Shown piece after piece: positions 53,750-63,704 of a stretch of 64,000 nucleotides of DNA. The notes beneath the pieces were generated by a model that was not told the origin of the DNA, did not search any database, and saw only the letters and a program-made list of their open reading frames with translations. The stretch spans positions 62,001 through 126,000 of the forward strand of contig CAJVYC010000006.1 of NCBI GenBank assembly GCA_913009205.1, given 5' to 3'. The stretch's first letter is position 1. Each line of letters opens with the position of its first letter. The DNA comes from an uncultured Fluviicola sp. (lineage in GTDB: Bacteria > Bacteroidota > Bacteroidia > Flavobacteriales_D > Crocinitomicaceae). Both the position numbers and the translations under genes were made by a program.

Positions 53750-54532
53750 ATGAAACATTTAACTGCAATTGTATTGCTAACATTCGCATTTAACGGGACT
53801 AGTCAAACTATAATTACAGAAGCTCCTTCTGTTTCTGCTAGTGCCACAACCGTTCCAAAAAATACTCTTCAAATTGAAAGTGGAATGAGTGCAAGTTCTA
53901 ATAATTATTGGACAACCATCTCATTGCCTTATGCCTTATTTAGATTAGGCCTTTCTAATAGATGGGAGTTAAGAATGAATAACTCATTCAATGTTCGGAA
54001 ATACAACGGCAGCATATTTTCAAATCCATCAACAAATTATGGTTTTGGTTCCTTCCAAGTAGGAACTAAATTTCAATTTATTAAAAACCCAGAAAGTAAA
54101 ACAAAAATTGCTGCAATAGCTAACGTAACGATCCCTAGTCATAATTCCAACTCAAGAGCTGCCTCATTGAATTTTAGTTTTAGTCATCAATTGGGTAGTA
54201 AGCATTCAATCGGATATAACCTCGGATACAATCCAAGCTATGCTCTATCAATTTCAAGCCCTGATATCATTAGTAATGTCAATTATTCACTGATTTATGG
54301 TTATTCCCTGAATTCTAAATTATCAATCTTTGGCGAGTTCTTTGGAAACTACCATTACTATCCAGCTGTGTTTGACCCAACAACTTCACTTTCTGTAGAT
54401 TTCGGAATTATGTACCTTCTCAGAGACAACATTCAAATTGATTATGCATATGCACATGGAAGAGGATTCACGAACCAATTTGACTTTCATTCGCTCGGAT
54501 TCAACATTCTATTGAACTCAAAAAAGAATTAA
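53750..54532 (+). CDS. Hypothetical outer membrane beta-barrel (transporter-like) protein
   Basis: Signal peptide MKHLTAIVLLTFAFNGTSQ; alternating beta-strand pattern; start trimmed. Confidence 0.68.
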   Translation: MKHLTAIVLLTFAFNGTSQTIITEAPSVSASATTVPKNTLQIESGMSASSNNYWTTISLPYALFRLGLSNRWELRMNNSFNVRKYNGSIFSNPSTNYGFGSFQVGTKFQFIKNPESKTKIAAIANVTIPSHNSNSRAASLNFSFSHQLGSKHSIGYNLGYNPSYALSISSPDIISNVNYSLIYGYSLNSKLSIFGEFFGNYHYYPAVFDPTTSLSVDFGIMYLLRDNIQIDYAYAHGRGFTNQFDFHSLGFNILLNSKKN

Positions 54533-54861
54533 TGGAAATCAAAGAAGCTCAAAAAATCGTCGACGATTGGATCAATGAATACGGAGTGCGCTACTTCGAC
54601 GAAATGACCAATACCGCAATATTAATGGAAGAAGTCGGTGAAGTCGCTAGGATCATGTCGCGTCGATACGGTGAACAAAGCGAAAAGGAAAGCGACAAAG
54701 GCAAAGACCTCGGAGATGAAATGGCAGACGTTATGTTTGTTCTTATCTGTTTAGCGAACCAAACCGGAATTGATCTTGAAGGAGCGATGCGCAAGAACCT
54801 TGAAAAGAAAACGAAACGCGATCATTCGCGTCACAAGGACAATCCGAAACTGAAGGATTAA
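54532..54861 (+). CDS. MazG-like nucleotide pyrophosphohydrolase
   Basis: LMEEVGEVARIMSRRYG...KDLGDEMADVMFVLICLANQTGIDLEGA. Confidence 0.88.
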   Translation: MEIKEAQKIVDDWINEYGVRYFDEMTNTAILMEEVGEVARIMSRRYGEQSEKESDKGKDLGDEMADVMFVLICLANQTGIDLEGAMRKNLEKKTKRDHSRHKDNPKLKD

Positions 54862-55341: not shown

Positions 55342-55734
55342 CTATTTCTCCAAAATTGTTTTAAGATCTGGTTTGAAGTACTGATCCGACTTCAATACTT
55401 TTCCATCTTCTCGGTAAATTGGGTTACCATCCTTATCTAATTTACTCATGTTAGAACGTTGAATTTCTTCGAACACTTCAACAATTTTATCCTGCATTCC
55501 GTGCTTCAAAATCGTTCCGCAAAGAATATAAAGCATATCCCCCAAAGCGTCGGCTACTTCCACTAAATCTCCGGCTTGAGCTGCTTCTAAATACTCTTCA
55601 TTCTCTTCCGCCATTAACTTGAAACGCAACATGATATCCGCTTCAGTAAGCTCAACTGTTGGCGAATAGTTGTTGCTTATTTTAAAAGCTTTGTGAAAAG
55701 TTTCTACTGCCGCTATCGTGTCTTTAAGTTCCAT
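55342..55734 (-). CDS. Nucleoside triphosphate pyrophosphohydrolase (MazG/PRA-PH-like)
   Basis: VETFHKAFKI...LRFKLMAEENEEYLEAAQAGDLVEVADALGDMLYILCGT. Confidence 0.85.
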   Translation of the reverse strand: MELKDTIAAVETFHKAFKISNNYSPTVELTEADIMLRFKLMAEENEEYLEAAQAGDLVEVADALGDMLYILCGTILKHGMQDKIVEVFEEIQRSNMSKLDKDGNPIYREDGKVLKSDQYFKPDLKTILEK

Positions 55735-58677: not shown

Positions 58678-59748
58678 CTAATAATACTCCTTTCCAGGAT
58701 TCATTATTCTCGTTTGATGTCGAATTGATTCTTGGTGAATTGCATCCATTACTTTCCGCACAAATTGAGACGTCAAATTGTAATCGTCGCTGTGTTCCAA
58801 TCTAGAATTGATAATTTTTTTCCAATGTTCTTCTTGCAGAATCGTAATATTATTTTCTCTTTTCAATTGACCAACTTCTTCGCTTAAGAGCATTCGTTCA
58901 CTCAATAAATCAAACAATCTATCATCCAAAGATCCAACGCGCGAACGGATATCATCGATTTTCCCTGCTATGTCAATTGATACTTCGTGCGATCTTAAAA
59001 TCAATTGATCCATCATTTCTGACCAACGCTTTGGTGTAACTTGTTGCGCTGCGTCCGACAATGCGTTATCTGGATCTGGATGCGATTCGATCATCAATCC
59101 ATCAAAATTCAAATCCATCGCTTTTTGACTTACTTCCAAAAGTAAATCGCGATTTCCAGTGATATGACTTGGATCACAAATGATTTTTGTCTCAGGTCTA
59201 CGTTCTTTCAAGGCAATTGGAATTTCCCAACTCGGAACATTTCTATATTTTGGATGATTGTAGACTGAAAAACCTCTGTGAATTCCGGACAAATCTGTTA
59301 GTCCAGCAGTTTCGAATCGTTCAAACGCTCCCAACCACAATGACAAATCCGGATTGACTGGATTCTTAATCATTACAGGGATATTTGTGCCTCTGATAGC
59401 ATCCGCAATCTCCTGAACGGTGAAAGGATTTACAGTTGTTCTGGCTCCAATCCACAGGATATCAACACCGGCCTTCAATGCCATTTCAACGTGTTTTGCG
59501 TTCGCAACTTCCGTAGTTACTTTCAAGCCCGTTTCTTTCCCTGCATTTACGAGCCATTCCAATCCAACTTCCCCTACTCCTTCGAACGAATTTGGACGCG
59601 TACGTGGCTTCCAAATCCCAGCTCTTAATGCATGAATTTTACCTGTTGCTTTTAAGTCCAAGGCCGTTTGTAAAACCTGCTCTTCACTTTCTGCACTGCA
59701 CGGCCCTGAAATTTGCACAGGACGTTCGTATAGATCTAACCAGCTCAT
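58678..59748 (-). CDS. Bifunctional 3-deoxy-7-phosphoheptulonate synthase / chorismate mutase type II
   Basis: ISGPCSAESEEQVLQTA, RAGIWKPRTRPNSFEGVG, KIICDPSHITGNRDLL, C-terminal chorismate mutase DDIRSRVGSLDDRLFDLLSERMLLSEEVGQLK. Confidence 0.93.
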   Translation of the reverse strand: MSWLDLYERPVQISGPCSAESEEQVLQTALDLKATGKIHALRAGIWKPRTRPNSFEGVGEVGLEWLVNAGKETGLKVTTEVANAKHVEMALKAGVDILWIGARTTVNPFTVQEIADAIRGTNIPVMIKNPVNPDLSLWLGAFERFETAGLTDLSGIHRGFSVYNHPKYRNVPSWEIPIALKERRPETKIICDPSHITGNRDLLLEVSQKAMDLNFDGLMIESHPDPDNALSDAAQQVTPKRWSEMMDQLILRSHEVSIDIAGKIDDIRSRVGSLDDRLFDLLSERMLLSEEVGQLKRENNITILQEEHWKKIINSRLEHSDDYNLTSQFVRKVMDAIHQESIRHQTRIMNPGKEYY

Positions 59749-59840
59749 AATTTTTATTATTTAATTCAATTTCAAATCGCATTAAATTGGTTCTTTAAAG
59801 GTATTCAATTGTTCACTGACCCCCCCTTTATTTTGCATAA

Positions 59841-59875
59841 AAAAGTCTCTCTCAGTTAAACCGAGAGAGACTTTT
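59841..59875 (-). terminator. Intrinsic terminator in the 5' leader of DAHP synthase gene (candidate attenuator)
   Basis: Minus strand AAAAGTCTCTCTC-GGTTTAACT-GAGAGAGACTTTT + TT; 13-bp perfect stem, 9-nt loop. Confidence 0.85.
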
Positions 59876-59902
59876 ATTTTAAATATGTCAATTTCTTCCC
59901 AG

Positions 59903-59959
59903 CTAGTAAAATATAGTTGACCACCAAAGAATGAATTTATTTTGAATTTGTATTTTCAT
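59903..59959 (-). CDS. Candidate aromatic leader peptide MKIQIQNKFILWWSTIFY
   Basis: ATG AAA ATA CAA ATT CAA AAT AAA TTC ATT CTT TGG TGG TCA ACT ATA TTT TAC TAG; Phe, tandem Trp, Phe-Tyr codons; 28 nt before the terminator stem, upstream of an aromatic biosynthesis gene. Confidence 0.72.
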   Translation of the reverse strand: MKIQIQNKFILWWSTIFY

Positions 59960-60454
59960 TGATGCAAATCTTTCACATTATTTAATTCAAATCCTAATCA
60001 TCTCGAAAAAAAGTGAATTCATTCGGCTTCTAGCTCTGAAGGCCACAGGGTTCATTTGCACCGGAACACAGCTCCAATGAAACTTTCACGACTTTATGCA
60101 TCCTCGATTAAAACCAAACACAACATTTTTTTACCGCAGAGAGACAAAAGCATAAGTGAAGAGTATCTATTTAGCCGCTATTTTTTACTGATGGCAAAAT
60201 TCAAACCTTTTAAAAAGACGAAACGAGAGAGGTTCAGTTGAATTCAAAAATCTGTTGACGGAGCAATAATTGGATCGGTATATTTGAATGCCTTAAAGAT
60301 GAATAAGGAAGTGGAATATTTGAAATCAATTCTATAACCCCACACATATTCATCACTCTAAGACTTTTAAATAAATAATATGAATATTTATACGTTTGTT
60401 TATGGGCTGATTCAATTGATTTGGTAGTATCTTTGTCACCTAATAAAATTGATA

Positions 60455-62628: not shown

Positions 62629-63300
62629 TTAAGTTTTCTTTTTCACACCTGGGATAAAATCTTTTAAATAGAATGGTTCCCAATAGGCAACATCTACGAA
62701 ATTTTCATCTTGGAATTTTTGATAGGCCAATTGTACTTGCCCTTTTGCCGAAGACTTAATAGTCTTATCAATAGAACAGTTGCGTCCTCCCCAAATTTCA
62801 ATCAATTTTTCCGCCCCGTCACCGAAATAAACGAAGGGCTCAAAGTTGCGGTATGAATCTTCATCGATGATGTCTGCGGTAATTTCTTTTAATGCCACTG
62901 CGCTTTCATTAACGAATAAGTTGTATGCTTCCATTCGTCGTGCATCTATCAAGGCACATAAATTTGTATCTAAGTGCGTTTTTTTGGCTTGTTCTGTCAA
63001 TGATGTCAAAGCATCAATTGCGATAAGCGGAATTTTCAAAGCGTAACAAAGTCCTTTTGCTGTTGCTGCTCCAATTCTCAACCCTGTATAAGAGCCAGGA
63101 CCGCTTGCCACAGAAATTGCTGCAAGATCTTTCAGTTCGATATTGGCTGCTGCAATAACATCTTGAACAAAAATCGTGAGGTTCTCACCGTGAGAGTAGC
63201 CGTCTTCTTCAAGTTCTTTGATCGCTAAGAGTTCGCCATTATTTGACACAGCAACAGAACATACTTTTGTTGCGGTTTCTAAATGTAAAATATAACCCAT
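62629..63300 (-). CDS. tsaB: tRNA threonylcarbamoyladenosine biosynthesis protein TsaB
   Basis: ILHLETATKVCSVAVSNNGELLA...ISVASGPGSYTGLRIGAATAKGLCYAL; start trimmed. Confidence 0.93.
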   Translation of the reverse strand: MGYILHLETATKVCSVAVSNNGELLAIKELEEDGYSHGENLTIFVQDVIAAANIELKDLAAISVASGPGSYTGLRIGAATAKGLCYALKIPLIAIDALTSLTEQAKKTHLDTNLCALIDARRMEAYNLFVNESAVALKEITADIIDEDSYRNFEPFVYFGDGAEKLIEIWGGRNCSIDKTIKSSAKGQVQLAYQKFQDENFVDVAYWEPFYLKDFIPGVKKKT

Positions 63301-63704
63301 TAGATATCTTTCTCCGCATTTGCTGGATCGTCCCAATTTTTAGGATTGACACAGAAATCATGTTCTAATTCCAGCACTGCACCAACTGTTTTGTATTTGA
63401 ACCAATTTTTTTCCCAAATATAGGCCAAATCAACAGCTTCAGAAGCAACAGTGCCGTCTGATTTTTTGAATTCAACAACAACCTCATAGTAATTCTCATA
63501 ACCTGTATGACGAACTGCTACAGAAAGAACTTTCACTTTTTCGGGCTTTACCATTGAGCAACATCCGCAGAAGAAATAAATGGATGCCATTTTTTCAATT
63601 TTCTCTTTTGCTTGCTCAGCCTGAGTCTTTGTAATGTAAGCCAACTGATCTGCTTTTGAAACAAATGAAATCAATAAGGCAAATGTAAAAATCAATTTTT
63701 TCAT
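63300..63704 (-). CDS. Hypothetical secreted protein
   Basis: Signal peptide MKKLIFTFALLISFVSKA; coupled (TAATG) to tsaB. Confidence 0.72.
   Translation of the reverse strand: MKKLIFTFALLISFVSKADQLAYITKTQAEQAKEKIEKMASIYFFCGCCSMVKPEKVKVLSVAVRHTGYENYYEVVVEFKKSDGTVASEAVDLAYIWEKNWFKYKTVGAVLELEHDFCVNPKNWDDPANAEKDI

Follow-up and report, generated by a model that had tools for sequence, protein, structure and literature searches.

Gene content and features of the locus

The window, a stretch of 64,000 nucleotides from a contig of an uncultured Fluviicola sp. (genome of 2.82 Mb, 99.2% complete), encodes on its minus strand a bifunctional DAHP synthase/chorismate mutase with DAHP_synth_1 and CM_2 domains. 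A mini-ORF with aromatic codons and an intrinsic terminator lie upstream of this gene, and all three elements sit exactly where the original prediction had placed them. The features discussed below are as follows.

58678..59748, minus strand: DAHP synthase/chorismate mutase gene, 356 aa (PF00793, E=2.5e-38; PF01817, E=1.1e-18).
59795..59814, minus strand: conserved block GAACAATTGAATACCTTTAA downstream of the terminator, with close variants in the relatives' leaders L003, L004, L005, and L006.
59839..59875, minus strand: intrinsic terminator AAAAGTCTCTCTCGGTTTAACTGAGAGAGACTTTTTT, a 16-bp stem (one G-U) with a UUA loop followed by six T (RNAfold).
59859..59871, minus strand: region 3, GUCUCUCUCGGUU, common to the candidate antiterminator and the 5′ arm of the terminator; identical in the sister genome G003, where the 3′ arm is changed.
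59894..59904, minus strand: region 2, AGCUGGGAAGA, candidate 5′ strand of the antiterminator, which overlaps the stop codon and begins 16 nt past the final Trp codon; unchanged in G003.
59903..59959, minus strand: leader mini-ORF MKIQIQNKFILWWSTIFY, ATG to TAG, with homologous mini-ORFs in 15/15 trp-carrying congeners.
59905-59903, minus strand: stop codon TAG of the mini-ORF.
59921..59926, minus strand: tandem Trp codons 12 and 13, the putative sensing codons; WW is also found in G003.
59965..59968, minus strand: TTTG, located 5 nt upstream of the mini-ORF ATG and a candidate for the core of the -7 promoter element of Bacteroidota (TAnnTTTG).

The predicted leader peptide contains the aromatic residues F9, W12, W13, F17, and Y18. 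Among the 909 ATG-initiated mini-ORFs of 8 to 30 codons in the window, WW or WxW occurs in 6 and the combination of WW with at least five aromatic residues in 1, and the one at 59959-59903 is the sole W-rich mini-ORF ahead of a terminator. The terminator stands between this mini-ORF and the gene. RNAfold assigns its hairpin stretch −22.7 kcal/mol with 16 pairs, the outer 13 of which make up the perfect 13-bp stem described in the original prediction. A simple consensus scan missed this terminator, and terminators in the comparison of leaders were called by folding. Elsewhere in the window, two proteins that appear MazG-like from their sequences are encoded less than 1 kb apart (54532-54861, plus strand; 55342-55734, minus strand).

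The TAnnTTTG motif is described as the sigma-A -7 box in Flavobacterium (PMC9723704). Since TTTG lies 5 nt before the ATG, the mRNA would begin at the start codon or within a few bases of it. The same 5-nt spacing was found in the window's leader (L001) and in L003, L005, L006, L062, and L064, and the spacing is 8 to 10 nt in other family members.

A candidate antiterminator under predicted control by ribosome position

An AU-rich antiterminator proposed at the outset, UAUUUUA paired with UAAAAUA, was rejected, as it yields only −1.3 to −2.8 kcal/mol and the sister genome has GACTTTA instead of TATTTTA. In its place we propose a duplex of region 2 with region 3, at −11.2 kcal/mol versus −5.3 kcal/mol for shuffles in the window's leader (p=0.022). 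Complementarity between the two regions holds across 14 leaders (combined Fisher p=2.8e-5), with the antiterminators of several leaders, most clearly L005, L007, and L062, individually no better than shuffles. Exchanging the region 3 partners among leaders also weakens their pairing with region 2 (permutation p=3e-4), and the same swap test among the ten less related leaders alone gave p=1e-4. Covariation of the 2:3 helix in the six most alignable leaders was not above the shuffle control (477 of 500 shuffles scored as high), so the case for this helix is built on the complementarity that unrelated leaders maintain. In those six leaders, 88% of cells pair, versus 20 to 40% for slid partners. 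For helix 3:4, which is the terminator, the leader alignment exceeds the shuffle control in paired cells as well as in covariation score. One compensatory change at a terminator loop position between two near relatives (C-G in L009, A-U in L010) is suggestive only.

The geometry of the leaders is regular with respect to the Trp codons. In every leader, region 2 starts 14 to 24 nt past the last Trp codon. The stop codon falls 6 to 24 nt past that codon, and region 2 may start ahead of it, at it, or beyond it. When the window's leader was folded with the footprint of a ribosome masked, the antiterminator reached −8.4 kcal/mol with a probability of 1.0 for a stall at Trp12 or Trp13, and −0.4 kcal/mol with the ribosome at the stop codon. 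In silico, an antiterminator that shares the 5′ arm of the terminator is therefore exposed at a Trp stall and covered at the stop.

Without a ribosome, the window's leader is predicted to prefer the antiterminator until region 4 has been transcribed; if this folding is right, termination would require translation. In some relatives, a hairpin that includes the Trp codons is predicted to form first. The terminator of the window's leader (−22.7 kcal/mol) is far stronger than its antiterminator (−8 to −11 kcal/mol), and antitermination must therefore depend on folding order or kinetics.

Conservation of the leader and its association with trp genes

The comparison of leaders drew on the sequences upstream of the orthologous genes in the genus and in 80 named genomes. 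The gene trpE is present in 15 of the 34 genomes of the genus, and in all 15 of these a mini-ORF with at least one Trp codon, followed by a terminator, precedes the DAHP synthase gene. Twelve congeners without trp genes could be read upstream of the gene, and only one of them, the genome of the window, has the leader. Leader and trpE are associated (Fisher p=1.6e-6, counted as 14/14 versus 1/12).

Leader peptides of the genus mostly carry W-x-W, often with N-D next (e.g., MRKITTYAWLWNDIE, MITTNTYKWFWNDLV, and MINKSTYNWQWNDFI). Those of near relatives are MKTQIQNKLILWWPTRLY, MKMQTTYSNFDFWCSRAVL, and MKMQKTHSSFFYWYGSPCFRR, and that of G006 is MNAKNTFNGSWDAYE; relatives keep the Trp codons as WW, WxW, or at least one W. 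Comparable leaders are found in other family members, namely, L070 from Crocinitomix (..FLNWWTE) and L064 (..FSWWIAFLR), both with a divergent trpE and a downstream aroA. The comparison of orthologous leaders that had been proposed as a check thus showed the Trp mini-ORF and terminator to be conserved in the genus and elsewhere in the family. Together with an antiterminator that ribosome position could control, this conservation supports the core of the original prediction, an attenuator that depends on translation of a leader peptide with aromatic residues. In Sphingobacteriales, leaders of DAHP synthase genes are rich in Tyr and Phe and are followed by terminators (L104, MNFKNTYYYGYFFYLGRNRA; L136, MSFKTTYYYGYFFYQDRNGYCM), which suggests that lineages differ in the amino acid sensed.

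In most leader-bearing congeners, the gene stands back to back with a trp operon; among the aromatic amino acids, a terminal pathway was found for Trp alone. As read from L052, L064, and L070, trpEGDCFBA diverges right beside the DAHP synthase gene, which is followed by aroA. The divergent trpE has a WWW or W.W leader of its own (e.g., MTQNTNWWWHSTNRWCEWR) and a terminator. More generally, trpE leaders (L139-L153, L062, L064, L067, L070, and L060) show WWW, WW, or W.W, most with a second W cluster, and a similar Trp leader lies upstream of trpE in a Marinifilum genome (L113).

Prephenate dehydratase is present in 4 of the 34 genomes of the genus, and in 3 of these 4 a second DAHP synthase/chorismate mutase-like gene was observed beside it (G010:C14, G028:C114, and G005:C90). 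PF02153 prephenate dehydrogenase was found in none of the 34 genomes, which may carry a divergent enzyme. Because the leader-bearing gene pairs with trp and the second DAHP synthase sits beside prephenate dehydratase, the former is most likely the Trp-branch DAHP synthase, which would account for the Trp codons in its leader. The presumed sensed amino acid is in this way linked to the pathway of the gene, since DAHP synthase opens the route to Trp.

Predicted mechanism and alternative explanations

These observations make it highly probable that the leader is a ribosome-mediated Trp attenuator of the E. coli trp type, placed ahead of the DAHP synthase/chorismate mutase gene. Transcription would begin shortly before the mini-ORF, and the mini-ORF would be translated. 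When Trp-tRNA is ample, the ribosome would reach the stop codon and hide region 2, regions 3 and 4 would form the terminator, and the gene would be off. When Trp-tRNA is scarce, the ribosome would wait at Trp12 or Trp13 and leave region 2 exposed, which would pair with newly made region 3, block the terminator, and allow the gene to be transcribed.

Whether such a response has a present use is a separate matter in the genome of the window, where trpE, trpB, and prephenate dehydratase were not found. Judging from gene content, aromatic amino acid synthesis is lost widely across the 34 genomes of the genus, with trpE missing from 19 and prephenate dehydratase from most, and the window's species seems incapable of synthesizing Trp or Phe. 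The trp operon seems to have been lost here and the attenuator to have stayed intact in sequence, which suggests that the attenuator outlasted the pathway it served; the response may be of no present use because the trp operon is gone. The leader could accordingly be a relict of the lost operon that regulates nothing useful, with a second promoter downstream of the terminator driving most expression. This explanation concerns present use and is compatible with the anatomy of a Trp attenuator; we regard it as possible, if on the unlikely side. All 11 other genomes without trp genes that have a readable upstream region lack the leader, and the conserved block downstream of the terminator contains TACCTTTA (59803-59796), which resembles a second -7 box. 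The block lies at a longer spacing from the terminator in L005 and L006, and it persists in relatives despite changed spacing or loss of the leader; it is thus possibly a terminator-independent second promoter, and such a promoter could bypass the attenuator. Against a relict, the window's leader shows no decay relative to the trp-carrying sister genome: the two share identical WW codons and regions 2 and 3, they differ in the spacer, the flanking codons, and the 3′ arm of the terminator, and the terminator of the window is the stronger one.

A continuing role can also be envisaged. Chorismate synthase is present in the genome, and PabB-like and isochorismate synthase-like proteins were detected in a domain-only scan, both below NCBIfam cut-offs; these proteins suggest that chorismate in this species probably serves folate and menaquinone. 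It is conceivable, and in our view unlikely, that the Trp attenuator still works in the window's species and has been co-opted to gauge the external amino acid supply, setting how much chorismate is left for folate and menaquinone.

The original prediction had the gene sense all three aromatic amino acids, with the Phe, Trp, and Tyr codons all contributing. The aromatic residues of the window's peptide and those of its near relatives' Phe/Tyr-rich leaders (YSNFDFW in L005, FFYWY in L006) fit such a general sensor, and masked folding of the window's leader allows the antiterminator for a stall at Phe9 as it does at Trp12 and Trp13. Folding disfavors the remaining codons: no antiterminator forms for a stall at Tyr18, or for one at Phe17 with ribosome edges of +12 or more, since these codons lie too close to region 2 and a ribosome there (assumed edges, +12 to +17) already hides the antiterminator strand. 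Phe9 and Phe17 are both Leu in the sister genome, W.W is the conserved core in most of the genus, and the gene pairs with trp. Sensing of Trp is therefore favored over sensing of all three, because Phe17 and Tyr18 are too near the stop and Phe9 is unconserved, and a general aromatic sensor at this locus is improbable. Mixed Trp/Phe/Tyr sensing is possible in leaders of the L005 and L006 type.

A plain terminator with a chance ORF, stopping antisense or stray upstream transcription, for instance, would need no ORF at all and would agree with an upstream region unlike that of the sister genome. Relatives conserve the Trp mini-ORF together with the terminator, both in every trp-carrying congener and in family members from other genera, and the ORF is thus not due to chance. 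Nor does any upstream minus-strand gene require a terminator here, as had been noted originally: none ends nearby, and the nearest, tsaB, lies at 62629-63336 with divergent genes between. We give this explanation almost no credence.

A riboswitch, a T-box, or a protein-binding leader would equally fit a conditional terminator by itself and is extremely improbable, as the conserved part of the leader is a coding pattern and the search of Rfam at gathering score, covering the window and seven relatives' loci, returned no match except one unrelated SAM riboswitch. Permissive searching gave chance-level scores only (e.g., PyrR at 24 bits versus a cut-off of 54). Trp_leader (RF00513) was matched neither at gathering score in the window and the seven loci nor among the weak matches. 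On the sequence evidence, the locus is best classed as a putative leader-peptide attenuator outside the Rfam Trp_leader family.

Significance and comparison with known systems

Leader-peptide attenuation has, to our knowledge, been little studied in Bacteroidota, and members of this phylum rarely use Shine-Dalgarno sites. A conserved, divergent pair of Trp attenuators, serving the trp operon and the DAHP synthase gene and each with its start codon beside the promoter element, would directly test transcription-translation coupling in the phylum. If the attenuator works, the DAHP synthase gene is probably on when Trp runs short, a classic control in a little-studied group. The window's genome, with its leader kept and its trp genes gone, is also a natural experiment on how long a regulatory RNA can outlive its pathway.

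In the E. coli trp attenuator, trpL combines a mini-ORF with Trp codons and alternative 2:3 and 3:4 hairpins, and the position of the ribosome sets the choice between them. The leader described here resembles this system (trpL, RF00513) in its Trp-codon mini-ORF and, in silico, in its alternative 2:3 and 3:4 hairpins. It differs in that the target is DAHP synthase rather than trpEDCBA, in belonging to a different phylum with no sequence or Rfam match, in a mini-ORF that starts almost at the promoter, and in a 1:2 hairpin that is weak in the window's leader. E. coli aroH likewise encodes a DAHP synthase isozyme regulated by Trp. Its expression follows Trp through repression by TrpR at the promoter, and the expression predicted here would follow Trp through attenuation.

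No DAHP synthase attenuator built on Trp codons turned up in the literature searched; the one published case uses Phe and Tyr. That case, Corynebacterium glutamicum aroF, is described as carrying a Phe-responsive attenuator whose leader peptide, AroR, contains Phe-Tyr-Phe (PMC4046766; PMC11802643, citing Neshat et al. 2014). Both systems place a leader-peptide attenuator before a DAHP synthase gene, and they differ in the codons, which are conserved as Trp in the leaders studied here. For the amino acid operons of Flavobacterium psychrophilum, leader-peptide attenuation has been noted in general, in passages that name no DAHP synthase case (PMC9723704); its attenuators share with the predicted Trp attenuator the phylum, the class of mechanism, and the type of promoter.
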